64,000 bases of DNA from NCBI RefSeq assembly GCF_004339595.1, contig NZ_SMFU01000008.1:372001-436000 (forward strand), given 5' to 3'. The stretch comes from Marinobacterium mangrovicola (GTDB taxonomy: Bacteria; Pseudomonadota; Gammaproteobacteria; Pseudomonadales; Balneatricaceae). Positions within the stretch are counted from its first letter, which is position 1. Each line of letters opens with the position of its first letter. Shown here in pieces: positions 31,465 through 59,487 of this stretch. The notes below the pieces were generated by a model. That model was not told the DNA's origin. It saw nothing but the letters and a program-made list of their open reading frames with translations, and made no database searches. The translations under genes were made by a program, and so were the position numbers.

Positions 31465-31637
31465 ATATTTCTAGATAGATAGTGTCGCTGTAAGGCCTCA
31501 CTGAGTTTTTATAGTGGCCGTGAATGGCCTTCGGCCGCGCGGGGCGGGGCTTGGCGTCTCCATATCGAACCGCCAACGTGCTAGGATGCGCTGCGGTTTT
31601 AAGTACACTCGGGCATCTTTCAGGGATCGGAACCAAC

Positions 31638-32900
31638 TTGGCAGTAAAGACGCGTTCATTTTTGATGTTGCAGGGTGTGGCATCGCCATTTTTTGCTCGC
31701 CTGGCGGATGCTCTGCGGGCTTGTGGCCATAAGGTCTACAAGGTCAACTTCAACGCCGGAGATCTGGCCTACTGGATACCGCGCGGCGACAGGGCGCATT
31801 TTCGTGGCTCTCTTGAGCAGTTGCCCGCATTTATCGAATCGCTTTGGAAGCGCTGGGGAATAACTGATCAAATTCTGTTCGGCGACCGCCGGCCGGTGCA
31901 TCGTGCTGCGGTGGAGAAAGCCGAGCGCTTTGGCATTCGAACCCATGTGTTCGAGGAAGGGTATTTTCGCCCTTTCTGGGTTACGCTCGAGCGTGAAGGC
32001 GTGAATGGCCATTCACTGCTGCCGAGGGATCCGGATTGGTTTCGTGCCGCTGCAGTCTATTTGCGTGATCAGCCCGAGCAAAAGCCGAAAAGGTTTCATT
32101 CGGCATTTCGCAAGCGTTCTGGCTACGACGTGATTTATCACGTTGCAGGCATGTTGAATCTGGTACTAAACCCGCGCTATCAGACCCATTCTCCAATTAC
32201 CGCTCCGGTGGAGTATGCGGGTTACATCTTGCGTTTTATGCGGCTGCCTTTCTGGCGCAAGCGAGATGCTGCTGTGATCGATCGTCTCTGCCGGGAGGCC
32301 GACGAGGTTCCTTTCTATCTTTTGCCGCTGCAGTTGAATACCGACGCGCAGATCCGTGATCACTCCCGTTTCGACAATATGCTGCAGGCGATGGAATATA
32401 TCCTTGAGTCATTCGCGAGGAACGCCCCGGGTAAATCTCGCCTGTTGATCAAAAACCATCCTCTGGATATGGGGCTTGTGGATTATCCGGGTCAGATAGC
32501 GCTGCTGGTTAAGCGGTTTGAGCTGGAAAACCGGGTTGAATACATAGAGACCGGGAATCTGGAAAAAGCGATCAAGTCGGCCGCTGGTACTGTGACTGTT
32601 AACAGCACCGCCGGTATGGTTGCTTTGGGGCACGGCTGTCCGACACTCTGCTTGAGCGACCCTATCTATAACCTGCCGGGCCTGACGTGGCAGAACGGCT
32701 TAGACAGCTTCTGGCGTGATGCTGGGCCTGCTGATACCGAGCTCTTCGAGGCATTCCGCAAGGTAGTGGTTCATGCGACGCAAATTAACGGCGGCTTCTA
32801 TTGCTATGACGGGATTGAAATGGCCGTGGAGAACTCCGCCAAGGTACTCTGCGCGGACAATCAGCCGCTTGAGCGTTTACTGAGAGCCTGCCCGTTATGA
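31638..32900 (+). CDS. rkpJ: KpsS-like capsule polysaccharide biosynthesis protein (RkpJ/WcbO type)
   Basis: About 420 residues of the capsule_synth (PF05159) family. The N-terminus has LQGVASPFFARLADALRACGHKVYKVNFNAGD, the usual KpsS opening, then FGDRRPVHRAAVEKAERFGIRTHVFEEGYFRPFWVTLE and the late LLIKNHPLDMG and VNSTAGMVALGHGCPTLCL motifs shared with KpsC/KpsS Kdo transferases. The start is uncertain: TTG 31638 with AGGG upstream fits the family length; ATG 31665 and upstream in-frame ATG 31524 are alternatives. In group 2 capsules KpsS with KpsC adds Kdo to the lipid acceptor. It is first of five genes matching rkpJHIAG/wcbOPQRT. Its stop overlaps the next start. Confidence 0.85.
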   Translation: MAVKTRSFLMLQGVASPFFARLADALRACGHKVYKVNFNAGDLAYWIPRGDRAHFRGSLEQLPAFIESLWKRWGITDQILFGDRRPVHRAAVEKAERFGIRTHVFEEGYFRPFWVTLEREGVNGHSLLPRDPDWFRAAAVYLRDQPEQKPKRFHSAFRKRSGYDVIYHVAGMLNLVLNPRYQTHSPITAPVEYAGYILRFMRLPFWRKRDAAVIDRLCREADEVPFYLLPLQLNTDAQIRDHSRFDNMLQAMEYILESFARNAPGKSRLLIKNHPLDMGLVDYPGQIALLVKRFELENRVEYIETGNLEKAIKSAAGTVTVNSTAGMVALGHGCPTLCLSDPIYNLPGLTWQNGLDSFWRDAGPADTELFEAFRKVVVHATQINGGFYCYDGIEMAVENSAKVLCADNQPLERLLRACPL

Positions 32901-33655: not shown

Positions 33656-33661
33656 AACGTG

Positions 33662-35173: not shown

Positions 35174-35246
35174 ACACGGTGTATGTATATTTGCTACTAT
35201 GCGGCGTTACACTGCGAAGAAGTTTGACTCGGGACTGTACACATAG

Positions 35247-44502: not shown

Positions 44503-44517
44503 AGCTGGTATTTGCGC

Positions 44518-46230
44518 ATGAAACAGATCAAAGCATTATTCCGTCCGTTCCTGCTGGGGCTTGGTGGATTGGTCCTGGCGAGTCAGGCTCAGGCGATGGA
44601 TATCGACAATAGTGGGATTTTGTCGGGGGTAGATCGCGCCGCTCCTATACCCCAGACCATTGATGAACAGCAGTCGCGTACCGATTGGCGTACAGCGCGC
44701 TTCGGGAAGGGGTCTTTGGATGCTCTTTCTGAAGATGATATGGATTTGGTTCTTCCCTTCGGCAGTCATCTGTTTAACGGTGGTTTTAGCGGAATTCGTG
44801 CTGATGGACTGAACTCCGACTATCGTCTTGTGCCTGGAGATCAGGTCACACTGAGGGTATGGGGCGCGGTTGAGATAGAGCGAATTATGCCCGTCGATGC
44901 ACAGGGTAATATCTTTGTGCCGGGTATTGGACCGATCAAGGTGCAGGGCAGCACCAACGGTGAGTTGAACTCCAAGGTTACCTCAGCCATTAAGTCTGTT
45001 TACCCCGAGGGGGTTGAGGTTTACACCAACCTTCAGGGAGTTCAGCCGGTAGCTGTGTTTGTTACTGGCTACGTCGAACATCCGGGCCGCTATGCGGGTA
45101 CGCCCACAGATTCTCTGCTGTATTTCATTGATCAGGCCGGTGGCATCGATAGTCGTTTGGGCAGCTATCGTAAAATCAGCGTTAAGCGTAATAACGAAAT
45201 TATCGCTTCCGCGGACCTCTATGACTTCCTGCTTGACGGCAAATTGCCGCTGCCTCAGTTCCAGGACGGCGACACCATCGTTATTTCTGAACGTGGCCCG
45301 TCTGTCGTGGTAACCGGTGACGTTGAACGTGACTACCGTTATGAGCTCTTGCCTGAAGAGATGAACGGCGGCGCGTTGTTGTCCTTGGCGCGTACCAAGT
45401 CAGACGTTTCGCATGTGTTGCTGCGCGGTAACCGTGATGACGGGCCTATCTCGATCTACGTAGCTGTTAACGAGCTGTCACAGCAGCCGCTGCGCAGTGG
45501 TGATGAGGTGCTGTTTAGCTCGGATCAGCGTGATGAAACGATCGTTGTTCAGCTTGAAGGCAGTTTCTATGGCCCTTCCCGCTATGCACTGCCGAAAGAT
45601 GTCCGCCTGCAGGAGTTTCTGGATGCGATTGCGGTACCGCCCCAGTTGACCGACACGTCCAGTATCTCGTTGCGTCGTGTTTCGGTTGCTGAACGCCAGC
45701 GTGAGGCCTTGCAGGAAAGCCTGCATCGTCTCGAAACCAATTACCTTTCTACGCCTTCATCAACTTCGGAAGAGGCTGAGATTCGACTCAAAGAATCCGA
45801 GTTGATCAGCAACTTCGTGGCGAAAGCATCACAGGTCGAGCCGAATGGCCGTCTTGTTGTCTCGCATAACGACCAGATCAGCAACATCCGTCTTCAGGAT
45901 GGTGATGTGATCACTCTGCCGGAGTACAGCGATTCAGTAATGGTCAGCGGTGAAGTCCTGGTTCCGCAGTCGATGGTATACAAACCCGGCCTGACCGCTA
46001 TGGACTACATCGAAAGCTCCGGTGGCTTTAGCCAGAATGCAGATGATGAGAATGTTCTGGTGGTACGGATGAATGGCGAACTCCGCCAGGCAAGTGATGT
46101 CAGCTTAAAACCGGGCGATGAAATCCTGGTGCTTCCGGTTATCCCAACGAAGAACTTGCAGTTGGCCACCAGCATCAGCCAGATCGTCTACCAGATCGCT
46201 ATCGCAGCCAAGGTCGCCTTCGACCTGTAA
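44518..46230 (+). CDS. kpsD: Polysaccharide export protein with SLBB domains (Wza/KpsD/WcbC type)
   Basis: 570 residues from ATG 44518 (the frame also has TTG 44512). A Sec signal (MKQIKALFRPFLLGLGGLVLASQAQA) without lipobox is followed by the poly_export domain (DYRLVPGDQVTLRVWGAVEIERIMPVDAQGNIFVPGIGPIKVQG) and successive SLBB segments (VFVTGYVEHPGRYAG; QLEGSFYGPSRYALP; VMVSGEVLVPQSMVY). The missing acylation site and length match KpsD more than Wza. It would form the outer-membrane/periplasmic conduit for the capsule. Confidence 0.9.
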   Translation: MKQIKALFRPFLLGLGGLVLASQAQAMDIDNSGILSGVDRAAPIPQTIDEQQSRTDWRTARFGKGSLDALSEDDMDLVLPFGSHLFNGGFSGIRADGLNSDYRLVPGDQVTLRVWGAVEIERIMPVDAQGNIFVPGIGPIKVQGSTNGELNSKVTSAIKSVYPEGVEVYTNLQGVQPVAVFVTGYVEHPGRYAGTPTDSLLYFIDQAGGIDSRLGSYRKISVKRNNEIIASADLYDFLLDGKLPLPQFQDGDTIVISERGPSVVVTGDVERDYRYELLPEEMNGGALLSLARTKSDVSHVLLRGNRDDGPISIYVAVNELSQQPLRSGDEVLFSSDQRDETIVVQLEGSFYGPSRYALPKDVRLQEFLDAIAVPPQLTDTSSISLRRVSVAERQREALQESLHRLETNYLSTPSSTSEEAEIRLKESELISNFVAKASQVEPNGRLVVSHNDQISNIRLQDGDVITLPEYSDSVMVSGEVLVPQSMVYKPGLTAMDYIESSGGFSQNADDENVLVVRMNGELRQASDVSLKPGDEILVLPVIPTKNLQLATSISQIVYQIAIAAKVAFDL

Positions 46231-46299: not shown

Positions 46300-47091
46300 G
46301 TGATTAGTACAAGAACTCCATGGCAGGTCACCCGCTCGGTATGGCACGCCATGTTTATCCGCGAAGCCCTCGCTCGTACCATGTCAGACCGCATGGCCTG
46401 GTTCTGGATGCTGTTTGAGCCGATTGCGATGATCGTGCTGATGGTACTAATTCGAACTGTGGCCATGGGGAGTGTGCAGCACATTGGGGGGGCTGAGTTC
46501 ATACCCTGGATAGTCACAGGCCTATTCGGATTTTTCCTTTTTCGCGAAAATATGTTGCGTCCTATAGGTGCCATTGATGCGAACAAAGGCTTGCTTGCTT
46601 ATCGCCAGGTCAAACCGATTGATTCGGTTATGGTTAGGTGCTATCTCGAAGGCCTCCTTAAATCATTTATTTTTTGTCTCTTTATTTTGGCGGGAGTGTT
46701 GCTGGATATAGGGCTTCTACCGGCGGAGCCTCTAGTGGCCCTATGGGCTTGGTTTTCGCTTTGGTGTCTAGGGGGGGGCGCAGGTCTCGTTTTTTCCGCG
46801 CTTGCCGGGCTAGTTCCCGAGGTGGCGAGGGTCCTACGAATTATATCTATGCCGTTGTTGATTATATCGGGCGTAGTATTCCCCCTGAACTTCGTTCCCC
46901 ATGATTTGCTGCACTATGTGATGTGGAATCCAATAGTACATGGTCTGGAGACGCTGCGAGCCGCTTTTTTTGCTTTGTACCAACCTGTGCACGGCACGAG
47001 CCTTCTTTATCTCTGGTATTGGGCGTTAACATTGATGACCCTTGGGTTGATGCTACATGTTCGTTTTGAGTCTAGGCTGAAACGCCAATGA
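46300..47091 (+). CDS. kpsM: ABC-2 type capsule exporter permease (Wzm/KpsM)
   Basis: 263 residues, GTG start at 46300 with GAGG at 46289-46292. Six helices are apparent, with the ABC-2 polysaccharide pattern: RMAWFWMLFEPIAMIVLMV near the N-terminus, FIPWIVTGLFGFFLFRE, and ISGVVFPLNFVPHDLLHYVMWNPIVHGLETLRAAFF near the end. It forms the inner-membrane channel with the adjacent ATPase. GC content falls within the gene relative to its upstream neighbours, and it contains G7 and G8 runs. Confidence 0.92.
   Translation: MISTRTPWQVTRSVWHAMFIREALARTMSDRMAWFWMLFEPIAMIVLMVLIRTVAMGSVQHIGGAEFIPWIVTGLFGFFLFRENMLRPIGAIDANKGLLAYRQVKPIDSVMVRCYLEGLLKSFIFCLFILAGVLLDIGLLPAEPLVALWAWFSLWCLGGGAGLVFSALAGLVPEVARVLRIISMPLLIISGVVFPLNFVPHDLLHYVMWNPIVHGLETLRAAFFALYQPVHGTSLLYLWYWALTLMTLGLMLHVRFESRLKRQ
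46771..46778 (+). repeat. G8 homopolymer inside the capsule permease gene
   Basis: Eight consecutive G's code for part of a Gly-Gly-Gly run (CLGGGAG). Frame is intact here. A second tract of seven G's is at 46486-46492. Gain or loss of one base would abolish the exporter, so it could act as an on/off switch. Confidence 0.85.
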
Positions 47092-47765
47092 TCAAAGTAG
47101 AGAACCTTTACAAACGCTATCACAACCACCATGGCAGTGATTGGGTACTTAAGGATGTGAGTATTGAGATTCCGAGTAACGTTAGCGTGGGATTGGTTGG
47201 CCGTAACGGCGCCGGAAAGTCCACGTTACTGCGCTTGCTTGGTGGGATGGATAGCCCTGATCGCGGTCGTATCGTTACCAATAGTCGTATCTCTTGGCCC
47301 ATAGGGCTGTCAGGGGGGCTTCAGGGCTCAATGACTGGTCGACAGAATGTACGGTTTGTTGCCCGAGTTCACGGAAATCGCGATGGAATTGCGGATATCG
47401 TCGCCAGAGTCGAAGAGTTTGCAGAGATAGGTAAGGCTTTTGATGAGCCAGTTAAAACATATTCTTCAGGTATGCGTTCTAGATTAAATTTTGGTCTATC
47501 GCTTGCGTTTGACTTCGATGTCTATTTATCAGATGAGGCAACGGCTGTCGGTGACAGATTGTTTAAAGCCAAAGCGACGAAGGCTTTTCGCGATCGTGTT
47601 GGAAAAGCGAGCATTATTATGGTTTCTCACTCAGAAGGAATTTTAAAAGATTTGTGTCAAGCCGGTATTTGGCTCGATGAGGGTAAAGCTATCTGGTTTG
47701 ATGATATTAATGCTGCCATCGAGGCATATCATAATAGTAGCGGCAAAAAGGGAAAGGGTAATTAA
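47088..47765 (+). CDS. kpsT: Capsule exporter ATP-binding protein (Wzt/KpsT)
   Basis: 225 residues: Walker A GRNGAGKSTLLR, signature YSSGMRSRLNFGLSLAFDFDVYLSDEA with Walker B, and the H-loop MVSHSEG. Its length matches KpsT; it lacks the C-terminal carbohydrate-binding extension of the O-antigen Wzt, so the exported polymer is probably not recognised through a Wzt cap domain. Start overlaps the kpsM stop (ATGA). Codon use is AT-richer than in the rkp-like genes. Confidence 0.94.
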   Translation: MIKVENLYKRYHNHHGSDWVLKDVSIEIPSNVSVGLVGRNGAGKSTLLRLLGGMDSPDRGRIVTNSRISWPIGLSGGLQGSMTGRQNVRFVARVHGNRDGIADIVARVEEFAEIGKAFDEPVKTYSSGMRSRLNFGLSLAFDFDVYLSDEATAVGDRLFKAKATKAFRDRVGKASIIMVSHSEGILKDLCQAGIWLDEGKAIWFDDINAAIEAYHNSSGKKGKGN

Positions 47766-47770
47766 CCTGC

Positions 47771-48871
47771 ATGAAAATCAACATTAAAAAGCTTATTAAG
47801 CAATATCCTTACTGGTTTGCCTGCCTGCTATCGATAGCACTTGTTGCATTCTATTGGGGTCTTTGGGCCAGCGATCGTTACGTATCAGAGGCCAATGTGG
47901 TGTTGGAAAGCCCACAGATAGCAGCGCCTACATTGGACTTCCAGTCCTTGCTAACTGGCGCTGGTAGTAATGATCGTGACATGCTGTTGCTGCGGGATTA
48001 CCTTTTGTCGGTTGATATGTTGCGTAAAGCCGACGCAGAGCTGGACCTACGTGGTCACTATACGCGGAACGGTATCGATTTCTTCTCAGAGTTATCTGGT
48101 AAAGATGTAACGATTGAGGAGCTGCACGAATACTATCTAAAGCGTGTCTTTGTAGACTTAGACTCATATGCAGGTGTTTTACGTATCAAGGTAGTCGCGT
48201 TTGATCCGGATATGGCGCATGCACTGTCTTCTTTTCTGCTGACTGAAGGCGAGCGTCACATGAACGCTATGGGGCAGCGCTTGGCTGAAGAGCAGGTTCA
48301 GTTTTTAGAAAAACAGGTAGCCAAACAGGCAGAGCAATTTGATCTCGCACGCCAGAAACTTATCGAATACCAGAACGAAAATGGCCTAGTTTCACCTACG
48401 GGTACAGTTGAAAGCATCAATGCGGTAGTCGCGAGTCTTGAAGCTCAATTGGCGAATTTAAGAGCAAAGAAAACAGCTTTATTGAGCTATCAGAGCAAGC
48501 GCTCGTCCGAGGTGCAGCGTACGGAAGCTGAAATTAAGGCATTGATTCAGCAAATCAGCCTGGAGCGCGCACGAATGGCGCAGCAGTCGGGTGGTGCGTT
48601 GAACGTCGTCTCTTCTGAATACCAGACACTTGAATTGCGTACCCAGTTTGCTCAGGAAAGCTACTCGGGTGCATTGATGGCGTTGGAAAATACGCGTATT
48701 GAAGCAGCACGTAAGCTCAAGCAGGTATCTGTGCTGCAGAGCCCAACACTGCCGGAGTACTCAGTAGAACCGCGTAGACTCTATAACACAGTGGTGTTTG
48801 CGATCATCGCGTTGCTGGCGGGGCTGATTTTTCAGATGCTCGTGCTGATTGTTAAAGATCACAAAGATTAA
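47771..48871 (+). CDS. kpsE: Capsule export inner-membrane protein (KpsE/WcbD type)
   Basis: 366 residues of the polysaccharide co-polymerase class: a first membrane helix (YWFACLLSIALVAFYWGLW, about 13-32), Wzz-like periplasmic region, a long helical part (about 170-320, RLAEEQVQFLEKQVAKQAEQF and following) and a C-terminal helix VVFAIIALLAGLIFQMLVLIV preceded by the LQSPTLPEYSVEPRR motif typical of KpsE. It links the ABC exporter with the KpsD-like channel. Spaced 5 bases after kpsT. Confidence 0.93.
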   Translation: MKINIKKLIKQYPYWFACLLSIALVAFYWGLWASDRYVSEANVVLESPQIAAPTLDFQSLLTGAGSNDRDMLLLRDYLLSVDMLRKADAELDLRGHYTRNGIDFFSELSGKDVTIEELHEYYLKRVFVDLDSYAGVLRIKVVAFDPDMAHALSSFLLTEGERHMNAMGQRLAEEQVQFLEKQVAKQAEQFDLARQKLIEYQNENGLVSPTGTVESINAVVASLEAQLANLRAKKTALLSYQSKRSSEVQRTEAEIKALIQQISLERARMAQQSGGALNVVSSEYQTLELRTQFAQESYSGALMALENTRIEAARKLKQVSVLQSPTLPEYSVEPRRLYNTVVFAIIALLAGLIFQMLVLIVKDHKD

Positions 48872-48962: not shown

Positions 48963-48975
48963 GGCGGTAGCGTGC
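48963..48975 (+). promoter_or_regulatory. ops element (RfaH recruitment / JUMPstart core)
   Basis: GGCGGTAGCGTGC followed by TTAA, an exact match to the operon-polarity-suppressor core found in the 3' part of JUMPstart sequences before O-antigen, LPS-core and capsule operons. It lies 24 bases before the chosen rmlB start, on the coding strand. RfaH loads at ops on paused RNA polymerase and prevents Rho termination in long foreign operons, so everything from rmlB to beyond the window may depend on it. The 48872-48962 stretch must hold the promoter; no confident box was seen. Confidence 0.8.
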
Positions 48976-48998
48976 TTAATCACTGGCCAAGGATCATG

Positions 48999-50090
48999 AT
49001 GAGTCAAAAAACCTTTCTTGTGACCGGCGGTGCCGGCTTTATCGGGTCGGCTGTTGTGCGTGAGCTGATCAACAATAGTAGCCACAAGGTCGTTAATGTC
49101 GACAAGCTGACCTATGCCGGTAATCTGGAGTCTTTGGTAAGCGTTACAGGCGACCCGCGTTACACGTTTGTGCAGGCCGATATCGGTGATGCTGCCGCTA
49201 TGCAGCGCGTCTTGGCAGAGCATCAGCCTGATATCGTTATGCACTTGGCGGCCGAAAGCCATGTGGATCGCTCCATCGACGGCCCTTCTGAATTTATTCA
49301 GACCAATATCGTAGGTACGTATATTCTCCTGGAAGCAGTCCGCCAGTACTGGAACGGACTGAATCAATCAGCTCCTGAAAAAGCCGAATGGTTCCGTTTC
49401 CATCATATTTCCACTGACGAAGTTTACGGAGATCTGCCTCACCCTGACGAGTTTGAGGGTGACGAGCTGCCATTGTTTACAGAGCAGACGAGCTATGCGC
49501 CCAGTAGCCCGTATTCCGCCAGTAAAGCTAGTTCGGACCATTTGGTACGCTCCTGGCAGCGCACGTTTGGCTTACCGACATTGGTAACTAACTGCAGCAA
49601 TAATTACGGCCCGTTTCATTTTCCTGAAAAACTCATCCCGTTGATGATACTTAATGCCTTGGCTGGTAAACCTCTTCCGGTTTATGGTGACGGTAAGCAG
49701 ATCCGTGACTGGCTGTATGTTGAAGACCACGCTCGTGCGTTGATTCTAGTTGCCCAGAAAGGCGCGATAGGTAGCACATACAACATCGGTGGCCACAACG
49801 AAAAGCGGAACATCGAAGTGGTCCACACTCTTTGTGATATTCTGCAAGAACTCCTTCCCTCTGACGCAAACTACGGTGATCTGATCACCTATGTACAAGA
49901 CCGTCCCGGCCACGATGTCCGCTACGCCATCGACGCGAGCAAGATCGAACGCGAACTGGGCTGGAAGCCGCAGGAAAGCTTTGAAACAGGCATGCGCAAG
50001 ACCGTCGAATGGTACCTTAATAACAGGGAATGGTGGCAGCGCGTGCAGGATGGTAGCTACCAAGGCGAACGCTTGGGAGTCGCCAAATGA
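48999..50090 (+). CDS. rmlB: dTDP-glucose 4,6-dehydratase
   Basis: 363 residues. NAD-binding [40 protein letters not shown] with catalytic Asp-Glu, and [15 protein letters not shown] with the Tyr-x3-Lys pair. It makes dTDP-4-keto-6-deoxyglucose. ATG 48999 is 5 bases after AAGGAT; 48996 is a possible alternative and the open frame starts at 48972. First gene after the ops element; overlaps rmlD (ATGA). Confidence 0.96.
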
Positions 50091-50959
50091 AAATCCTGAT
50101 CACTGGCGGTAATGGCCAGGTAGGTTTTGAATTGCAGCGTTCGCTGGCACTGTTCGGCGAAGTTTTAGTACCTACCCGACAGAAATTGGATTTGGCCAGC
50201 CATACGGCGGTTGAAGATTATCTGCAGACTCATCATCCGGGTCTCATCATCAACGCCGCTGCCTATACAGCTGTCGATAAAGCTGAATCTGAGCCCGATA
50301 AGGCCCGCCGCTTGAATGCCCAATTGCCCTCTCAATTGGCTGCCTACGCTAAAGCAAATGACATCTTACTGGTGCATTATTCATCCGATTATGTCTATCC
50401 GGGCATAGGTGATAAGCCATTCAGTGAAGATGCTGAAACAGGCCCTTTGGGCGTCTATGGCCAAACCAAATTGGAGGGCGACGAAGCCATTACAGCCAAT
50501 GGTTGCCGTCATCTGATTTTTCGTACCAGTTGGGTCTACAGTGCTCGTGGTAACAACTTCATGAAGACCATGCTGCGTCTGGCTAAGGATAAAAACGGTC
50601 TCAATATCGTTGCTGATCAGGTCGGGGCACCAACTCCGGCAAGGTTGATTGCTAATGTAACCGCTCATGCAGTTGCCCGATCGTTACCCTCCGGTACATA
50701 CCACCTGGCCCCCAAGGGATCAACCAGTTGGCATGGCTTTGCCCAAGCGATCTTCAAACTGGCGAAAGAAAAAGGCGAAGAATTGAAAGTGGGACCGGAA
50801 CAAGCCCATCCTATACCGACCAGCGAGTACCCAACGCCGGCCCAAAGGCCGCTGAACTCTAGATTAAACCTGAGTAAACTAGAAACAGCACTTAACGTCC
50901 AATTGCCTGATTGGCAGAGTCAGCTGCAGCTGACCCTGGGTGAATATCTAGAAGAATGA
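50087..50959 (+). CDS. rmlD: dTDP-4-dehydrorhamnose reductase
   Basis: 290 residues: [56 protein letters not shown] with Tyr and Lys, and [21 protein letters not shown]. It reduces dTDP-4-keto-rhamnose to dTDP-L-rhamnose. Start overlaps the rmlB stop. The next reading frame overlaps its own stop by four bases, suggesting tight coupling to the first coiled-coil gene. Confidence 0.95.
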
Positions 50960-50982
50960 TTGAGTCTCGGAGCAACATCAAT

Positions 50983-52968
50983 ATGACGGTAACATTGGGC
51001 GTAAGCCTCTACAGCAACTGGCAAATCATATCTCCCTTGCTAGAAACCTTAGGTTGCGCCCCCGTTAAAGATGCTTATCCAGAAAGTTGGTATTTAGAAC
51101 AACAGGGTGTCCCGGAGGGATTCCTTTTACTTGCTTACACTTACCCTGAAAAAGCATTGGTGTGTGCAATGCAAAAGGGGCAGGAACCGGCTAAAGCATT
51201 GCAAGATTGGGAAAGGCATATCCAAGCATTACTTACCCTTTACAAAAAAAACCGGAACCGTGCTGTCTTAGTCAATATCCAGCAGGCAGCGAATAATCGG
51301 GAGCGAACCGTAGAAGCGATTGCCAGCAATTGGAATCTGAATATTGCATTGCCGGATATCAAAGACAAAAACGATGACAGTGAGCCAGACTCATATTTTC
51401 GACTGATCGCAACCTATATAGTACAGCAAGACCGGAAATTAAACGGGCTTCTTGCTCAACTGGAGGCTTGTACCCTTCCAGTAAACAGTGAGGACTCCGA
51501 GAGGATACAGGAGCTAGATATAGATTCCCTATTCTGGGATATTTCGAAACTTCGTCAAAGGAATAGCGAATTTGAGGCTCTTAAAGTATCCCGCGACAAA
51601 GCTGAGGGCGAGCTGAAGCAGTGTATCGAAGATATGCACGAGCTGCGCACGGCCCTAGAGTCAAAGGACTTAGATTACCAACAAAAGGATTATGAGGCGC
51701 AGAGGCTTCAGCAAGAGCTTGAACAGGCCCGTCGACAAAGCCAGCAGCTGCAATCGGGGCTGGGCGAAGAAAATCTGATGGTTATTGAACAACTCCATCG
51801 GGTTCAAGAAGAGCTCGCGCAAGTGCAAGGGCTGGATATAGATTCTGTATACCGGGAAGTTTCGAAACTTCGTCAAAGGGATAGCGAATTTGAGGCTCTT
51901 AAAGTAGCCCAAGCCAAAGCTGACGAAGAGCTAAAGCAGCGTATCGAAGATGTGAACAAGCTGCGCACCTCCTTGGAGGCAAAGGAATTAGAATACCAAC
52001 AAAAGGATGATGAGGCGCAGAGGCTTCAGCAACAACTGGAACAGACTCGTCAACAAAGCCAGCAGCTTCAATCGGCGCTGGGCGAAGAGAACCAGTTGGT
52101 TATTGAGCACCTCCACCGAGTTCAAGAAGAGCTCGCGCAGGTACAGGGGCAGGATATAGATTCCGTATACCGTGAGGTTTCGAATCTTCGTCAAAGGGAT
52201 GAAAAACTTGAGGTTCTAAAAGCAGCCCAAGCCAAATCAGACGAAGAGCGAGAGCGGCGTGTCGCAGATGTGAACAAGCTGCGTGCCTCCTTGGAAGCAA
52301 CGGAATTTAAATACCGAAAAGCACACGATGAGGTGCGCAGGCTTAATCAAGAGCTGGAACATGTTGGTCAACAAGGCGAGCAGGTACAATCGGCGCTGCG
52401 GGAAGAAAACCGGTTGGTGATAGAACACTTGCATCAGGTGCAAGAAGAGCTCGAGCGACAGTTTATTCATAAGCATTCACTCGAAAAACAGTTGAAAAGG
52501 TTAACCCTGGAACAAGAGCAGGCTCTTTCCGCCGCCAACAACCAGATCAGTCGGCTACAAAACGAACTTAACCGAATCAAAGGTAGTGTTGCGTGGAAAG
52601 CTACTACGCCCATGAGGGCTATCAGCCACTCCTTCATACGGACATCGCACGAAAAAAGTAAGCTTAAAAAGCAAGTAGAACAGCTAGAATCTACGAAATA
52701 CTTCGATGCAGCCTGGTATCTGAAAACCTATCCGGATGTGGCAGCAAGCGAGCTAACTCCGGTGGAACACTACCTAAAGTTTGGAGCGGATGAGGGGCGA
52801 AATCCTAGCCCGGAATTCGACACTCATTGGTATGTCCAGGTAAACCCAGATGTTCAGGAGTCTGGCATCAACCCTCTTATTCACTTCATTAGCCACGGCC
52901 AGGGCGAAGGGCGCGCACCTAACTCAAGAGTACAGCAGTCCCTCCCATCACCCCAGGAGGAGAAGTAA
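50983..52968 (+). CDS. Coiled-coil protein with three 106-residue tandem repeats and C-terminal WYL/NPDV repeats
   Basis: About 661 residues; ATG 50983 has GGAG at 50968-50971, while ATG 50956 overlapping rmlD would add nine residues. Residues 1-160 form a globular domain I do not recognise. Residues about 179-496 are three near-identical 106-residue coiled-coil units (opening D-I-D-S, then REVSKLRQRDSEFEALK, ending HRVQEELAQVQG). More coiled coil follows to about 560. Residues 573-648 carry two copies of a motif, FDAAWYLKTYPDVA ... HYLKFGADEGRNPSP and FDTHWYVQVNPDVQ ... HFISHGQGEGRAPN, also present in the glycosyltransferase gene at 55903. No membrane segment or signal. Its place in a polysaccharide operon suggests a scaffold or length-measuring role, not shown. 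Confidence 0.72.
   Translation: MTVTLGVSLYSNWQIISPLLETLGCAPVKDAYPESWYLEQQGVPEGFLLLAYTYPEKALVCAMQKGQEPAKALQDWERHIQALLTLYKKNRNRAVLVNIQQAANNRERTVEAIASNWNLNIALPDIKDKNDDSEPDSYFRLIATYIVQQDRKLNGLLAQLEACTLPVNSEDSERIQELDIDSLFWDISKLRQRNSEFEALKVSRDKAEGELKQCIEDMHELRTALESKDLDYQQKDYEAQRLQQELEQARRQSQQLQSGLGEENLMVIEQLHRVQEELAQVQGLDIDSVYREVSKLRQRDSEFEALKVAQAKADEELKQRIEDVNKLRTSLEAKELEYQQKDDEAQRLQQQLEQTRQQSQQLQSALGEENQLVIEHLHRVQEELAQVQGQDIDSVYREVSNLRQRDEKLEVLKAAQAKSDEERERRVADVNKLRASLEATEFKYRKAHDEVRRLNQELEHVGQQGEQVQSALREENRLVIEHLHQVQEELERQFIHKHSLEKQLKRLTLEQEQALSAANNQISRLQNELNRIKGSVAWKATTPMRAISHSFIRTSHEKSKLKKQVEQLESTKYFDAAWYLKTYPDVAASELTPVEHYLKFGADEGRNPSPEFDTHWYVQVNPDVQESGINPLIHFISHGQGEGRAPNSRVQQSLPSPQEEK
51517..52470 (+). 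repeat. Three in-frame 318-bp direct repeats
   Basis: Units start at 51517, 51835 and 52153, each opening with the same dozen bases (GATATAGATTC). The spacing is exactly 318 bases both times, so copy-number change by recombination would keep the frame and lengthen or shorten the coiled coil by 106 residues. Confidence 0.9.
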
Positions 52969-52971
52969 GCT

Positions 52972-54591
52972 ATGGCAGTTATAATCACTCTGAACGCGGC
53001 TAGTACAGAAATCATTACCATAGGCGCCAAAGGTGAAAAAACAGCGAAAACCATCGCCGTTGCGGTGACGCCGAACCCGGAAAGTAACACTCTTTACGAA
53101 TACAACCTGCCTGACGCCAACAGTCTGCATCCGGCGGAGGAAGGCCTGAAGCTGCTTTTTCCGGGTTTGAAATTACAAGCAAAGCGGCAAGTTGAAACCC
53201 AGCATCCTGAGGAACTGGTACGTCACTGTTGTCCGCACCTAGAGCAGGACAACCAGTTGAGTATTAACAGCCCTGGCGAAGAGCAGAATATATTCAACGC
53301 GCTTGCCGAAGCCGGGCTCCTAAAATTTTTTACCCAACTTACTGTACTTGCCCACGAGAAGCCTGTTTATCAGAATGCGAAGCCTGCTCAAGAAATAGTG
53401 GATTTATTTACAAAGCATGGCTTTGAGTATGGCGGAACCAATACCAAAGATCCGGACTGGCCAACGTTGACATTCAAGCGCAACCGTCTCCAAAACACGG
53501 TAGATAAGCTGCGAGGCGAGCTTCAAAGCGCACTCGAAAAGTTCCATGCAGAGGTCGAAAAAAACAAAGCCTTAGAGAAGTACCTGGCTGAAACACAAAG
53601 CCGGTTACAGCAACTGGAAAAGGCACGAAAAAGTACTGAAGACAGGCTCAATGACACTCTACATGACGAAAGGAAAGCGGGTCAGCGTCTGAGCGCAGAG
53701 CTTGAAAGTCTCAAAGTGAAGTTGGCGGAAACCGAAGAACAGCTCGAAGAACGGTCTAATACTCAAAGTACTCTCAAGACCCTGCAGGATCGGATGGAAT
53801 ATCTGTTCGGCCAGAATACATTGCAACTTGAACAAGCTGCAAATGCGTTGGGCCAACACGTAAGCCAAACTGCAGAAATCACTTCAAGGGAACTTGAAGC
53901 CGGCATAGCCTTGCAGCGCGTGGCTCCGGGGGCCGCTGCAATCACTCACAGCGGGCTACCTAAAAGTGCCGCGTTGGAACTGGCAAGCCAGCTTAATACC
54001 AAAAACTACGACCTGATCATTGAACTGGGCAGTGGTAGTACCACTTATTTCATAGCTCAGCTCTTGAAGAACGCCGGAAAGGACCACTCCTCGACAACTG
54101 AGAATCAGAGGTCGCTGAGCCATTATGTAGAGCCCAGTGAAGACGACTTGCCAAGGCGGATCCTGAGCGTCGATCACAATCGAAATCGTCAGAAAGAACT
54201 CGGCGAAAATTTAACCAATGCGGGTCTAGCAAGCTATGTAAGCCTGCAATTCGCACCGCTGGTACCTTCGCAATACGCCGGTAAAGAGCAGCTCTTCTAT
54301 GACTGCAGTACTCGCCTGCAGCAGGTTGCTCATTTGTTGGATAGCCGCCTAGGTAGAATCCTGGTTGTGGTGAATATCGACCCAACAGAAACCGGCCCGG
54401 AACCAGGCGCGGCCTTGCCCGCAGTATTGCAATATCTTTCAGCGCATCAGCTAGATATCGTCATCCATAGTCCGTCCCAGCAGCAAATCACCGACCAATG
54501 GTTAAGCATACTGAGCCAACGAGGTCTTGACCATTCGGCACTGAAGGCCTTTGGCACGGGACAGGTTCAACACCTCACGGTGAACCCGTAA
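52972..54591 (+). CDS. Coiled-coil protein with C-terminal methyltransferase-like domain
   Basis: 539 residues, start behind GGAGGAG. Residues 1-165 are an N-terminal globular module (SLHPAEEGLKLLFPGLKL; AGLLKFFTQLTVLAHEKPVY; a DPDWPTLTFKRN ending) of unknown function. About 167-310 is a strong coiled coil. About 340-530 resembles a class I SAM methyltransferase: YDLIIELGSGSTTYFIAQLL as motif I and RRILSVDHNRNRQKELGENL as the acidic motif II region. It sits 3 bases after the tandem-repeat protein. A methyltransferase tied to a coiled coil in an ABC-exported glycan locus recalls WbdD, but the domain order is reversed and no kinase domain is seen. Confidence 0.68.
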   Translation: MAVIITLNAASTEIITIGAKGEKTAKTIAVAVTPNPESNTLYEYNLPDANSLHPAEEGLKLLFPGLKLQAKRQVETQHPEELVRHCCPHLEQDNQLSINSPGEEQNIFNALAEAGLLKFFTQLTVLAHEKPVYQNAKPAQEIVDLFTKHGFEYGGTNTKDPDWPTLTFKRNRLQNTVDKLRGELQSALEKFHAEVEKNKALEKYLAETQSRLQQLEKARKSTEDRLNDTLHDERKAGQRLSAELESLKVKLAETEEQLEERSNTQSTLKTLQDRMEYLFGQNTLQLEQAANALGQHVSQTAEITSRELEAGIALQRVAPGAAAITHSGLPKSAALELASQLNTKNYDLIIELGSGSTTYFIAQLLKNAGKDHSSTTENQRSLSHYVEPSEDDLPRRILSVDHNRNRQKELGENLTNAGLASYVSLQFAPLVPSQYAGKEQLFYDCSTRLQQVAHLLDSRLGRILVVVNIDPTETGPEPGAALPAVLQYLSAHQLDIVIHSPSQQQITDQWLSILSQRGLDHSALKAFGTGQVQHLTVNP

Positions 54592-54607
54592 CAGAGAGTA
54601 AAACAGC

Positions 54608-54922
54608 ATGAAACCGGACAACCCCCTGATTTTGAACTTCTCTCAACCCGCTCAACAGGTCTCTCAGGCGACCTTGCAAGCTGATGCTACAGACGCTGCT
54701 CGGCAACTTGAAAGGCTAAAAAGTGAACTCTACGGCAAGAATCAACTGATCGAAACCAAAAATAAAGAAATCAGTGAATTGAAAATCAGAAATCGCCAGC
54801 TGCAGGCGGAAAATCAAGAAAATCAAGAACGGCAAAAACTCATGGACGAAGAGCTGCGAAGAGCCGAAACGCAAATTGAATTAATCATGGAGCTAATGAA
54901 CGAAAACCAAGCAAAGAAATAG
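54608..54922 (+). CDS. Small coiled-coil protein
   Basis: 104 residues. After a short disordered N-terminus (LILNFSQPAQQVSQATLQ) nearly all of it, about residues 30-100, is one charged heptad coiled coil (LERLKSELYGKNQLIETKNKE to RAETQIELIMELMNEN). No homologue recognised. It is the third consecutive coiled-coil gene between rmlD and rmlA and may be a partner subunit of the two before it. Confidence 0.65.
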   Translation: MKPDNPLILNFSQPAQQVSQATLQADATDAARQLERLKSELYGKNQLIETKNKEISELKIRNRQLQAENQENQERQKLMDEELRRAETQIELIMELMNENQAKK

Positions 54923-54979: not shown

Positions 54980-55843
54980 ATGAAAGGCATAATTCTCGCC
55001 GGTGGCTCCGGCACCCGCCTACACCCCATTACTCTGGGAGTCTCCAAGCAGCTGCTGCCTATTTATGATAAACCCATGGTGTACTATCCCATCTCCGTAC
55101 TCATGTTGGCTGGTATTCGCGATATTCTCATTATTAGCACCCCGGAGGATCTATCCCAGTATGAGAAGTTACTGGGTACAGGCGAGCAGTTCGGTGTGAA
55201 CTTCAGCTACAAGGTGCAGCATAAACCCGAAGGCCTTGCTCAGGCTTTTACTATCGGCGAAGAGTTCATAGGCAAAGATAGCGTATGCCTGGTACTGGGC
55301 GACAACATCTTCCACGGCCAGCATTTCAGTGAGCAGCTAAAGGATGCTGCTCAAAAAGACAAAGGCGCAACGGTATTCGGCTACTGGGTTAAAGACCCCG
55401 AACGATTTGGTGTGGTGGAATTTGACGAAAATGGCAGAGCCATCAGCATCGAAGAAAAGCCCGAGCAACCAAAATCATCCTACGCTGTCACAGGCTTGTA
55501 TTTCTACGACAACGACGTTGTGGAAATAGCCAAAAACGTAACACCGTCCGCGCGTGGCGAACTGGAGATCACCGCCGTAAACAATGTGTACCTCGAGAGG
55601 GGCGATCTGCACGTTCAGAAACTCGGTCGCGGCTTTGCGTGGCTGGACACTGGTACCCACGACAGCCTGTTAGAAGCCAGCAGCTACGTGCAGACTATTG
55701 AGCACCGTCAGGGATTGAAAGTGGCTTGCCTGGAAGAAATCGCTTGGCGCAACAAGTGGATAACTGACGAAGAACTCCGGGCGCGGGGAAAGACCCTCAA
55801 AAAGACGGGTTACGGTAGCTACCTCTGTGAACTCGTAAAGTGA
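54980..55843 (+). CDS. rmlA: Glucose-1-phosphate thymidylyltransferase
   Basis: 287 residues from ATG 54980 ([18 protein letters not shown]). Motifs GGSGTRLHP (nucleotide loop), [45 protein letters not shown] and [19 protein letters not shown] are all present. First committed step to dTDP-rhamnose. Separated from rmlBD by the three coiled-coil genes, and rmlC is not found in the window. Confidence 0.96.
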
Positions 55844-55902: not shown

Positions 55903-58900
55903 ATGATGAATGTTCAGGTAAAACCTGCAACGCTGCTAAGCGCTGCGAACAGTAAATTCAGAAATGCGCAATATCGGGAGGCGATCGATGCATATCGTCA
56001 ATTACTCCGGGACAACCCGGAATTAGGAAGGTCAATCCACTTTAATCTGGAACTTGCGCAGAGACGGCTGAACGGTGATTCGCACGCTCAAAAAGAGGTG
56101 AAGACCACTCCTGCGGCGGCTCCAGAGAAATCAGCAGTGGAGATGAGTAAAGCAGCTCACCACTTTGACCCCGAATACTACTTGCAAGAAAATGACGATG
56201 TGCGCGAAGCAGGCGTTAATCCTGAAGAGCACTACTGGTCAAACGGCGAACGAGAGGGCCGAAAGCCCAATCCGTGGTTTGATCCTTCGTTCTACTACCG
56301 GCTGAACGCTGATGTCCGCCAAGCCGGGATTTCCGCTTTCCGGCATTACATCGATTCAGGCCGTCAGGAAGGTCGTGGAAGTCATTCTCCCATTCAGGAT
56401 GACAAGCGAGTAACTACCTCTGCCCATAAACCGTTATTGTTCGTGGGGCATGATGGTGTGCTCGCGGGCTCTGAAATTGTGCTGCTTGAAGTGGTGAGGT
56501 GGTTCTATAACCACACCACTCGTAAAATCAAACTTTTGCTTCTAGCTCCTGGCCCGGTAGCTGACCAGTACGCTGAATTTGCTGATGTCTATGTGTTGCC
56601 CGGTGACGGTGTCGACCAGCCCGACGACCTGAAAGCATTCCTTAACGAGAACTTCGAGTTCGCATATCTCAACACCGTTGTCTCGGGTAGACTGTTCAAC
56701 TATCTAGAACAAGCAGGTGCGCGACTGGATTGCGATATCGTTACCCATATTCATGAAATGGAAAAGGTGTTGGCGACCTTTCCGGTGGAGATGGAAGCAT
56801 TGCTTGGCCGAACCAAACATTGGATATCTGCCTCCCCGGCTTCCTCTGCAACACTGGAAACCAAGTACCAAATAGCCATTGGCGCACTGACAACCGTACC
56901 CGCGTTTATTAACCCGGTTGCAAGAAAGGAAGCCCTCACCAACGAACTTCAGGCCGAGGCAAGAGAAGAACTGGGGCTGAGCACGAGTGCCTTCGTGGTC
57001 ATGGGTTGTGGGACGGTCTACGAGCGTAAAGGCCCTGACCTGTTCCTGGAAGCCGCCCGCTTGCTGAAAAAGCAAACCAACCAGCAGATTGAGTTTGTGT
57101 GGCTGGGCCAAGGGCCTGACAAGGAAATATTGGAAGCATCACTCACTGAAGAGGAAAAAGGCTGGATAATATTTGCGGGTAACAGAAATAACGCGAACAA
57201 ACTACTAGCTGGGGCTGACGTATTCTTTATGTCATCCAGAGAAGATCCGTTCCCTCTCGTGGTTCTGGAATCTGCCCAGCATGGTGTCCCAACCGTCTGC
57301 TTTGAGCCTGCAACCGGCATCACAGCGTTTATTGAGGAGAATGCCGGTATCGCAGTACCGGAAATCAGCTCTCAATTGGCAGCGAAGGCTCTTCAGAAAC
57401 TGATGGAGCACCCCAGCTATCGGCAGGAGCTTGGTAACAATGCGCGGGCAAAACTGTTCGCTAACTACACCACAGACCAGCAAAACCTCAAGATTTACAC
57501 TACCATTCAGCAAGTTACCGATTACAAGCCGTCTGTTTCAGTCATCGTGCCGTTCTACAACCACGAAAAATTCATCGAAGAGCGGCTGGACAGCATTCTG
57601 GCGCAGCCCATAAAAGACATTGAAATCATCGCGCTGGATGACTGCTCCACTGATAACACCGTGGCTAAAGTGCACCCGTACGAGCTAGACGGCCGGGTAA
57701 CCCTCATCGAGAACGAAGCCAACTCTGGCTCCCCCTTTAAGCAGTGGGAGAAAGGCATTCGCCTGGCTCAAGGGGATGTGATCTGGATTGCAGAAGGTGA
57801 CGACACCTGTGATCCAAACTTCATACAAACCCTGCTGCCTTATTTCGACGACCTGATGGTTAACATTGCCGGGGCGAAAACAGAAATAATTGACGAGCAC
57901 GGTACCCTGAAGGAAAACGCGCTGTCGCCATACCTGAACATGGCGTTCCCCGGCAAGTTTGACAAGAGCTATATCAAGGATGGCTTCGAGGAAGTCAACG
58001 AGCAACTTGGAGCCATGTGCACCCTCGTGAATGCAAGCGGATTGCTGATCAGAAAGCGATCCTTCGGCGCCAGTCTGAGCACTGCCCAGAACTTCAAAAT
58101 GTGTGGCGACTGGCTGATTTATCTTGAATGTCTAACAGGCGGAAAAATAGCCTATGATATCAACACTCGAAACTACTTCCGGCGCCACTCTGCATCCCAG
58201 GTTCACAAGGTAGAGGGTACCGAGGTTTACTTTAACGAGCGCTACGCCATCACAGATTTTGTGGTAGAGAATTTTGCAGTATCCCGACGGATGCTGAAAA
58301 AAGCGTTCGCAGCAATCGACCATGAATGGGAGCGCTTTGCGCACAAAAATCCAGGCAAGAGCCTCTCGGACTTGTACAACCTGGACACCATCAGAAAGAA
58401 ATCCTCTTTCCTTGAAAGGCAACCCCACGTTGCTTTTTACGTGCACGGCATGATGTTCTCCAAAGGCGGAATCGAGCGCCTGGCAGGTCAGCTCGCGAAT
58501 CATCTGGTGGAGAACGGCTGGCAGGTAACCATATTCTGCAAGGCCCACCCAAGTAGAAAGCCGATCTACCCACTCTATGAAAGCGTTAGAGTGGTGCCGC
58601 TGTTCGATGAACATAAACTGGAAAAATCGGTAAAAGCTCTCAATACAGCGCTTTGTTATTCAGACATTGATGTATTCGTTCCGATGCTCTCTGAGTGGCT
58701 GTTTGAGCCTGTAATAGAAGCAGCACAGAATACAGGCGTTGCCATAATTGCGTCCGAGCACAATGATCCTTGGAAAATCGAAGAATTGTGGTGGGGTAAA
58801 AAGGAGCGAGCTGAGTGGTTTGGGAAGGTCGATGCCATCCATCTTTTACTGAATAAATTCACAGAAAGTTTGCCTGGGAATTTGCACCAAAATGTATTTA

Positions 58901-59487
58901 CCATACCAAATGGCGTCGATATCCCCAAAGAAATATCAATAGATAAGAGAGAGAAAATTATTCTTGCTGTTGGTCGTTTGGAGAAACAAAAGCGATTTGA
59001 CCGACTTCTAGAGGCAATTGGTAAAACTCAAACTTCTCTAAGGGATAAGGGGTATCGCGTACATATTTTGGGTGAAGGTAGTTTAAAAGCCGAGTTGAAG
59101 AGCCAAGCGGAATCTCTAGGAATTCAGGACTTGGTTGTGCTATTGGGGTCATCCCCAAACATTGAAATTTCCTATAAAAGCGCAGATTTTTTTGTGATGT
59201 CATCTGAGTTCGAAGGGTTTGGGATAGCTTTGGTCGAAGCAATGGCTCATGGATTGCCTGCTATTGGGTTTCGTGAGTGCAATGGACCGAACGAAATAAT
59301 CATAGAGGGCGAGACTGGAGCATTAGTTGATAGTAGTGATGAGCTCGCTAAGATGATTGATGAATGGCTATCGGCAGACCTAACTGAAGCTCGATTATCT
59401 GCTGCCAAGCACGCGAAAAACTTTAGTTTGGATAAATTCTATGATGAGTGGAAAGATCTACTCAGCTTTGTAAGGAGTGCGACGTGA
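55903..59487 (+). CDS. Triple-domain glycosyltransferase (GT4-GT2-GT4) with NPDV-type repeats
   Basis: 1194 residues. A short TPR-like helix pair (about 5-55) precedes two FDPEYYLQENDDVR ... EGRKPNP-type repeats (about 86-163). Next is a GT4 domain (about 173-540; LFVGHDGVLAGSE, MGCGTVYERKGPDLFLEAA, SSREDPFPLVVLES). A GT2 domain follows (about 543-800; VSVIVPFYNHEKFIEERLDS, AEGDDTCDP). A second GT4 ends it (about 842-1190; FYVHGMMFSKGGIERLA, VGRLEKQKRFDRLLEA, MSSEFEGFGIALVEAMAHG). Three transfer activities in one chain suggest it assembles a repeat unit. GC drops within the last GT4 domain, near 58.9 kb. Confidence 0.9.
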   Translation: MMNVQVKPATLLSAANSKFRNAQYREAIDAYRQLLRDNPELGRSIHFNLELAQRRLNGDSHAQKEVKTTPAAAPEKSAVEMSKAAHHFDPEYYLQENDDVREAGVNPEEHYWSNGEREGRKPNPWFDPSFYYRLNADVRQAGISAFRHYIDSGRQEGRGSHSPIQDDKRVTTSAHKPLLFVGHDGVLAGSEIVLLEVVRWFYNHTTRKIKLLLLAPGPVADQYAEFADVYVLPGDGVDQPDDLKAFLNENFEFAYLNTVVSGRLFNYLEQAGARLDCDIVTHIHEMEKVLATFPVEMEALLGRTKHWISASPASSATLETKYQIAIGALTTVPAFINPVARKEALTNELQAEAREELGLSTSAFVVMGCGTVYERKGPDLFLEAARLLKKQTNQQIEFVWLGQGPDKEILEASLTEEEKGWIIFAGNRNNANKLLAGADVFFMSSREDPFPLVVLESAQHGVPTVCFEPATGITAFIEENAGIAVPEISSQLAAKALQKLMEHPSYRQELGNNARAKLFANYTTDQQNLKIYTTIQQVTDYKPSVSVIVPFYNHEKFIEERLDSILAQPIKDIEIIALDDCSTDNTVAKVHPYELDGRVTLIENEANSGSPFKQWEKGIRLAQGDVIWIAEGDDTCDPNFIQTLLPYFDDLMVNIAGAKTEIIDEHGTLKENALSPYLNMAFPGKFDKSYIKDGFEEVNEQLGAMCTLVNASGLLIRKRSFGASLSTAQNFKMCGDWLIYLECLTGGKIAYDINTRNYFRRHSASQVHKVEGTEVYFNERYAITDFVVENFAVSRRMLKKAFAAIDHEWERFAHKNPGKSLSDLYNLDTIRKKSSFLERQPHVAFYVHGMMFSKGGIERLAGQLANHLVENGWQVTIFCKAHPSRKPIYPLYESVRVVPLFDEHKLEKSVKALNTALCYSDIDVFVPMLSEWLFEPVIEAAQNTGVAIIASEHNDPWKIEELWWGKKERAEWFGKVDAIHLLLNKFTESLPGNLHQNVFTIPNGVDIPKEISIDKREKIILAVGRLEKQKRFDRLLEAIGKTQTSLRDKGYRVHILGEGSLKAELKSQAESLGIQDLVVLLGSSPNIEISYKSADFFVMSSEFEGFGIALVEAMAHGLPAIGFRECNGPNEIIIEGETGALVDSSDELAKMIDEWLSADLTEARLSAAKHAKNFSLDKFYDEWKDLLSFVRSAT

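Follow-up and report, generated by a model that had tools for sequence, protein, structure and literature searches.

The K5 (heparosan) capsule of Escherichia coli is a heparin precursor, and KfiB is needed for it. In the account given by PMC4366286, deletion of kfiB left no K5 capsule by a phage test, KfiC failed to localise to the membrane without KfiB (citing Hodson 2000), and the kfiB product was, in 2015, still described as lacking a clearly defined role. A review has KfiB stabilising KfiA-KfiC and contacting KpsM/KpsT, not acting directly in polymerisation, and credits it with more uniform chains (PMC12834895); a KfiA-KfiB-KfiC membrane complex is named in PMC9371971, and kfiB is called a putative sulfotransferase in PMC13171606, the only paper in the literature searched that pairs 'KfiB' with 'coiled-coil' ('DUF8374' occurred in none). 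In the WbdD systems, as presented in PMC11231755, the chain is instead capped by an intact enzyme, and the same source notes that ATP-binding cassette (ABC) systems without a C-terminal carbohydrate-binding module also exist. Here we compare with these systems three consecutive genes, encoding the coiled-coil proteins CC1, CC2 and CC3, in a 64,000-nucleotide stretch of Marinobacterium mangrovicola DNA (contig NZ_SMFU01000008.1, positions 372,001 to 436,000; the window). The trio is real, recurrent and part of glycan loci, and is best read as a KfiB-type scaffold with a methyltransferase-derived partner. Its genes and their parts are as follows.

50956..52968 or 50983-52968, + strand: CC1 open reading frame, 670 amino acids (aa), or 661 aa if the in-frame ATG at 50983 is the start
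50983..51525, + strand: CC1 head, predicted sulfotransferase fold without the canonical 3'-phosphoadenosine 5'-phosphosulfate (PAPS)-binding loop
51508..52443, + strand: three tandem repeats in the CC1 coil, 318-bp / 106-aa spacing
52699..52914, + strand: CC1 C-terminal EGR module, FDxxWYLxxxPDVxx...HYLxxGxxEGRxP twice, by profile
52972..54591, + strand: CC2 open reading frame, 539 aa
52975..53511, + strand: CC2 head, FkbM-derived, S-adenosylmethionine (SAM) motif I absent, by profile A1
53899..54588, + strand: C-terminal methyltransferase domain of CC2, retaining E.GSG, with loss of the DGPP and DD motifs
54608..54922, + strand: CC3 open reading frame, 104 aa

The first-pass annotation had placed three tightly packed coiled-coil genes between rmlD and rmlA, and the open reading frames, the flanks and the gaps of 3 and 16 bases on the open reading frame map (CC1-CC2 and CC2-CC3) bear this out. 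Its 661-residue length for the first protein holds for a start at ATG 50983; a 670-aa start at 50956, where the ATG overlaps the rmlD stop as ATGA, is also possible. The coiled-coil character that it gave to all three proteins is supported by their composition (1-3% glycine plus proline, 40-47% glutamate, lysine, arginine and glutamine) and by heptad periodicity, a modest statistic in which 33, 2 and 29 of 1000 shuffles came up to the power observed for CC1, CC2 and CC3, and 545 and 157 of 1000 did so for two globular segments used as controls. None of the three matched a Pfam or NCBIfam model above its curated cut-off. The tandem repeats that it saw in CC1 are likewise present: a 300-nt unit occurs three times at a spacing of 318 nt, the other two copies matching the first at 85% and 71% identity, with protein identities of 72, 43 and 66 of 100 positions.

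Profile comparison indicates that the CC1 head is homologous to the head of KfiB, which matched a CC1-head profile built without E. coli (A5) at E 2.5e-15 and one restricted to window-type rows (A3) at 1.3e-8; hhalign gave 7.8e-7 for KfiB against the CC1 head. Alignment and modelling assign this head a sulfotransferase fold from which the canonical cofactor loop is absent: the PAPS loop pattern [KR]SG[TS] was found in the first 28 residues of none of the 12 heads compared. For the sulfotransferase template, 26 loci were taken, 11 without a matching loop pattern were dropped and 15 were aligned. The head sits on a long coil that ends in two EGR repeats, a tail module also present within the large glycosyltransferase encoded at 55903-59487. 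An AlphaFold 2 model of this tail is helical, with a predicted local distance difference test score of 84.5; Foldseek gave it no PDB match at E<=10 and there was no VIA row, which does not imply a new fold. Sequence searches of the PDB returned nothing credible for the EGR tail or for the head of either CC1 or CC2. The looser form of a QLHxVQEELE-type coil motif matches window CC1 at residue 492, and the stricter form matches 14 of 287 proteins, the window not among them. EGR-tailed coiled-coil proteins encoded at L045 9453-11735 and L074 11415-13223 carry a different head, methyltransferase-like by eye, which suggests that heads have been swapped on a common coil-tail design.

In E. coli Nissle a KfiB-like gene, labelled hypothetical, is flanked by kfiA and kfiC, and a transposase remnant precedes kfiC; the product of this KfiB-like gene is 32-39% identical over nearly its full length to four other E. 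coli proteins. Two further E. coli loci, the plasmid pAL.H8 and the chromosome NZ_CP032237, encode a KfiB-like and a CC2-like protein side by side. The CC2-like proteins of these two are 42% identical over 603 columns, and that of pAL.H8 is 23% identical to window CC2 over 373 columns. By blastn the NZ_CP032237 pair matched 350 of 5426 E. coli genomes, 39 of them over at least 80% of the query; among the matches listed, the best 60 of the 350, 53 were partial and all of these fell in the CC1-like gene, under the labels kfiB, DUF8374, sulfotransferase family, coiled-coil and hypothetical. Three galE-linked E. coli loci with KfiB-like genes (L143-L145) we take to be K4-like. The kps layouts are of group 3 in pAL.H8 and group 2 in NZ_CP032237, as these are described in PMC10433991, and the E. 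coli CC2-like genes are probably the coiled-coil 'putative methyltransferase' genes mentioned in PMC13171606. A tail common to KfiB and its glycosyltransferases, expected by analogy with the EGR module in the window, was looked for and rejected (0 of 7 E. coli Kfi/glycosyltransferase proteins). The capsule locus L120 (NZ_CP082350.1 15628-36897), of kps type and with the pair, lies on an IncY plasmid in an E. coli strain isolated from a pond; the C-terminal module (residues 477-565) of its KfiB-like protein (L120 5073-6836) matches the start of NF058596, an O-methyl phosphoramidate transferase model, at E 1.5e-8, below the cut-off.

CC2 consists of a head with an FkbM methyltransferase fold, a coil and a second methyltransferase domain that is here eroded. 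Profile A1, made from seven CC2 heads, reaches an FkbM methyltransferase at E 4.6e-13, and that protein is itself a PF05050 member at E 4.3e-15. SAM motif I (VGANxG) is absent from the window head, and several relatives have partial IGAG forms. The first-pass annotation also read a coil fused to a methyltransferase-like domain. Pfam recognises that domain weakly (Methyltransf_24, 15.2 bits where the cut-off is 26.3, E 0.041), but it is clear against relatives, where it can be recognised as a class I methyltransferase. Among the eight C-terminal domains compared, five keep DGPPG and the following DD (L042, L075, L048, E. coli pAL.H8 and E. coli NZ_CP032237) and three have them changed (window, L041, L040); GSG is kept in seven of the eight and is GTG in L040.

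CC3 resembles the C-terminus of those CC2-like proteins that lack the methyltransferase domain. Compared with 284 proteins, whole CC3 found L047 at 2.1e-8, then L043 at 0.24 and L046 at 0.37, and its tail alone found L047 at 4.9e-9, L077 at 6.5e-5, L043 at 3.7e-4 and L046 at 7. An AEAQI-type motif is found in CC3 and in the CC2-like proteins of L043, L046, L047 and L077, starting in all five within about 20 residues of the protein end. CC3 is not a constant member of the gene set: in L040, L041 and L049 the third place is taken by a small coiled-coil protein resembling tetratricopeptide repeats (TPR), not CC3. The TPR-like hairpin of the large glycosyltransferase (window 55903-56088) also begins these small third-position proteins of relatives and other glycosyltransferases; at E<=0.01 a search with it retrieved 13 of 281 proteins, four of them the seeds and one matched C-terminally, and it matched three of the seven E. 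coli proteins supplied (GT_L143, GT_L144 and GT_L130, glycosyltransferases adjoining KfiB-like genes). The hairpin may be a docking part that binds the scaffold.

The possibility that the gene set is confined to its source genome was rejected. CC1-like and CC2-like genes occur together at 14 loci: the window, G385, G131, G147, G115, G399, G376, G237, G717, G679, G280, E. coli pAL.H8, E. coli NZ_CP032237 and Leisingera M527. They adjoin in 12 of these; in G237 a glycosyltransferase gene lies between them, and the two Leisingera genes are on different strands, separated by 5.3 kb. Some assignments are weak: G280 is without both heads, the G376 CC1-like protein is placed by tail and position, the CC1-head matches of G131 and G399 are partial, and the G679 pair, below threshold in one profile search, rests on a CC2-head match of 5.3e-6 and CC1-head similarity to G237. 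The CC2-type methyltransferase domain is intact at four of the 14 loci (G717, G280 and the two of E. coli), eroded at two (window, G385) and not found at eight; CC2-like proteins without it are those of L043, L044, L046, L047, L049, L072, L077 and Leisingera. ABC genes are present in 10 of the 14, about 33 kb off in G385 and 22 kb in G147, the evidence in G280 being KpsM/E/D-like genes and in Leisingera a label plus an ATPase pattern. The recurrence of the pair in glycan loci, mostly with ABC genes, supports the first-pass annotation on this point. No ABC gene was seen in G376 or G237, whose contigs are short (11.9 and 14.9 kb). CC2-like genes without a recognised CC1-like gene in the stretch occur in the G053 kps locus, G350, Thalassovita, Sulfitobacter and Ensifer, and CC1-like genes without CC2 at a second G053 locus (L076) and at E. 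coli loci (K5 and galE-linked).

The searches by rank, each counting the source genome, retrieved CC1 in 24 of 390 genomes of the same order at E<=1e-8, mostly through the EGR tail, and whole CC2 in 4 of 96 genomes at E<=1e-3, two of them weakly. The CC2-head profile matched 10 of the 390 at E<=1e-5, one of which (G212) is an FkbM enzyme, and 4 of 321 genomes in a class sample, where the CC1-head profile matched 6 of 312; further weak matches in the class sample were G474, G589, G667 and G529. Among 72,556 plasmid records two had the CC1 head and 10 had CC2, a scan of genome contigs gave one locus (Marinimicrobium agarilyticum), and viral contigs gave an EGR match at one locus and no match to the CC1 head. 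Plasmids of the Roseobacter group that carry glycan genes (L117, L118, L121; rhamnose genes in Thalassovita) encode CC2-like proteins, and that of Leisingera also a CC1-like one.

The surroundings of the trio in the window are these.

31524..32900, + strand: KpsS-like Kdo-linker gene (Kdo, 3-deoxy-D-manno-oct-2-ulosonic acid); Capsule_synth PF05159 above cut-off, KpsS model below its cut-off
44512..46230, + strand: KpsD-like polysaccharide export protein
46300..48871, + strand: KpsM-, KpsT- and KpsE-like exporter genes, best named models below curated cut-offs
48972..50959, + strand: rmlB and rmlD, NCBIfam equivalog models, above cut-offs
54980..55843, + strand: rmlA, NCBIfam equivalog model, above cut-off
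55903..59487, + strand: large glycosyltransferase GT4-GT2-GT4, with the N-terminal TPR-like hairpin at residues 1-62 and EGR repeats at residues 87-158

Beyond the window are KpsC-type matches in a single 661-aa frame (G000:C2:449738-451474) and an RmlC-like stretch (L141 5648-6169). Because kps-type exporter genes occur with KpsS/KpsC and rml genes, the locus can be read as a Kdo-linker, ABC-exported (kps) capsule locus with rhamnose genes. Near KpsS, within 31524-43966, short-chain dehydrogenase/reductase and sulfatase-family genes stand with polyketide-synthase-like and BioF-like genes (below cut-offs), a region that presumably resembles the rhizobial rkp-1 region.

We consider it probable that CC1, CC2 and CC3 are mainly structural parts of a capsule-assembly machine, in which a KfiB-type scaffold with a methyltransferase-derived partner holds the polymerase beside the exporter. 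CC1 would be a distant KfiB-type protein. Some CC2-like proteins that lack the extra domain have a coil-and-tail piece of their own in cis, and CC3 may supply such a piece in trans. The coils would zip together into a membrane-associated scaffold whose heads and tail or TPR-like modules could hold the glycosyltransferases beside KpsM/KpsT, the polymer being built on a Kdo-lipid primer and then passed to the exporter; a similar job for KfiA and KfiC in E. coli K5 is reported for KfiB in the sources cited above. Several observations weigh against this proposal. CC1 is related to KfiB only remotely, through the head; the two have different tails, with no EGR match in KfiB, and the KfiB-type tail was itself not found in the seven E. 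coli Kfi/glycosyltransferase proteins. Neither KfiA nor KfiC, nor two others of the E. coli proteins supplied, matched the TPR-like hairpin. Before E. coli intermediates were used, hhalign of CC1-type heads against sulfotransferases was weak (P 0.004, 0.019 and 0.042), and Foldseek gave no match at E 0.001 or better for that relation. The CC3 similarity is a coiled-coil match, one of 100 shuffled CC3 sequences having reached E<=1e-3. Beside the KfiB-like gene of the K5 stretch, and of each of the three galE-linked stretches in E. coli, the annotation shows no CC2-like gene (by annotation only; the neighbours were not profiled), so the gene set is not obligatory, and it is patchy, since CC2 was found in none of seven other genomes of the same genus. 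Finally, no ABC gene was seen in 60 kb of either G717 or G679. Genes for a Wzy_C protein and an initiating-type glycosyltransferase stand close to the pair in G717, so its occurrence may extend beyond ABC systems.

The first-pass annotation had instead proposed that CC2, with CC1 and CC3, works like WbdD, the methyltransferase capping the chain and the coil length setting its size. CC2 does have the WbdD-type combination of coil and methyltransferase (as given in PMC11231755), and PMC13171606 notes that coil length varies among putative methyltransferase genes in many group 3 clusters of E. coli, genes that we infer to be CC2-like; the domain is also intact in five of the eight compared, two E. 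coli kps loci included, so it may act in those lineages. In the window DGPP and DD are lost, and at eight of the 14 loci the domain was not found at all. KpsT there has 225 aa with 101 residues after the ABC signature, too few for a Wzt-type carbohydrate-binding module; the polysaccharide-type ATPases have 93-111 such residues in 11 of 12 loci, which leaves no room for the typical module, and 190 in G131. KpsS and KpsC, moreover, mark a Kdo-lipid-primed capsule. We therefore rejected a WbdD-type terminator as the main reading of the window and regard that model as quite improbable: length control by termination is unsupported here, and may apply in the lineages whose CC2 domain looks intact.

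A length effect of the coil is possible without a terminator, if the coil is a spacer whose length fixes how far the polymerase stands from the exporter, and thereby tunes chain length or processivity. Such a ruler on the scaffold would fit a CC1 coil that grew in frame by 106-aa tandem units and CC1-like relatives that range from 304 to 791 aa in whole length; a neutral coil length would also lead one to expect such variation, and in PMC13171606 the kTYPr authors do not expect the coil-length variation of the group 3 methyltransferase genes to be critical. We hold this version to be unlikely. Least probable, and by our estimate very unlikely, is that CC1 and CC2 are working modification enzymes (sulfotransferase, methyltransferases) that are coiled-coil by happenstance. 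Both heads and the C-terminal domain do have enzyme folds or families, database records label relatives sulfotransferase or O-methyltransferase, and the E. coli and several other CC2 heads keep an IGAG-type motif I. In the window, however, the heads have neither a canonical PAPS loop nor SAM motif I, DGPP/DD are missing from the C-terminal domain, and KfiB, as the E. coli K5 candidate, did not elongate Kdo acceptors in the assay of PMC11666461, though a different activity was assayed there.

The scaffold reading places KfiB in a wider class, defined by an enzyme-fold head without its cofactor loop, a coil, an exchangeable tail and a recurrent methyltransferase-like partner, which makes the joining of polymerase, scaffold and exporter, and coil-length control, testable in transporter-dependent capsules. 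It also advises caution: where genes of this kind are labelled 'sulfotransferase' or 'methyltransferase', the label may not imply a sulfated or methylated polymer. A bolder proposal, which we put forward as speculative and unlikely, is that KfiB, CC1 and CC2 form one class of coiled-coil scaffolds from retired sugar-modifying enzymes, spanning Gamma- and Alphaproteobacteria and both Kps- and Wzm/Wzt-type systems, in which coil length would set polymer size with no terminator here, and that the lineages with intact CC2 (e.g. the two E. coli kps loci) would hold the first coiled-coil terminator of a Kdo-lipid-primed capsule.

Among the known systems, WbdD and related coiled-coil terminators share with CC2 a methyltransferase joined to a long coil in an ABC-exporter locus, whereas in the window that domain is eroded and placed after the coil, KpsT is short, Kdo-linker genes are present and the Pfam scan of the window found no kinase family. 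WbdD-type terminators are further marked by a C-terminal site that recruits the polymerase. To the FkbM methyltransferases (PF05050) the likeness is the match of the CC2-head profile to a member of that family, and the difference is that the window head lacks SAM motif I. The CC2-like genes of E. coli pAL.H8 and NZ_CP032237 stand directly 3' of a KfiB-like gene and likewise encode a coil and a C-terminal methyltransferase, with, in pAL.H8, an FkbM-like head (profile E 5.1e-5); the DGPPG and DD motifs, lost in the window, are retained in these E. coli forms. KfiB of E. coli K5 and the KfiB-like E. coli proteins have in common with CC1 a sulfotransferase-fold head without the canonical PAPS loop, a long coil and a place in the kps variable region adjoining glycosyltransferases; window CC1 differs in its shortened head, its three 106-aa coil repeats, an EGR tail replacing the KfiB C-terminal module, and its neighbours CC2 and CC3.

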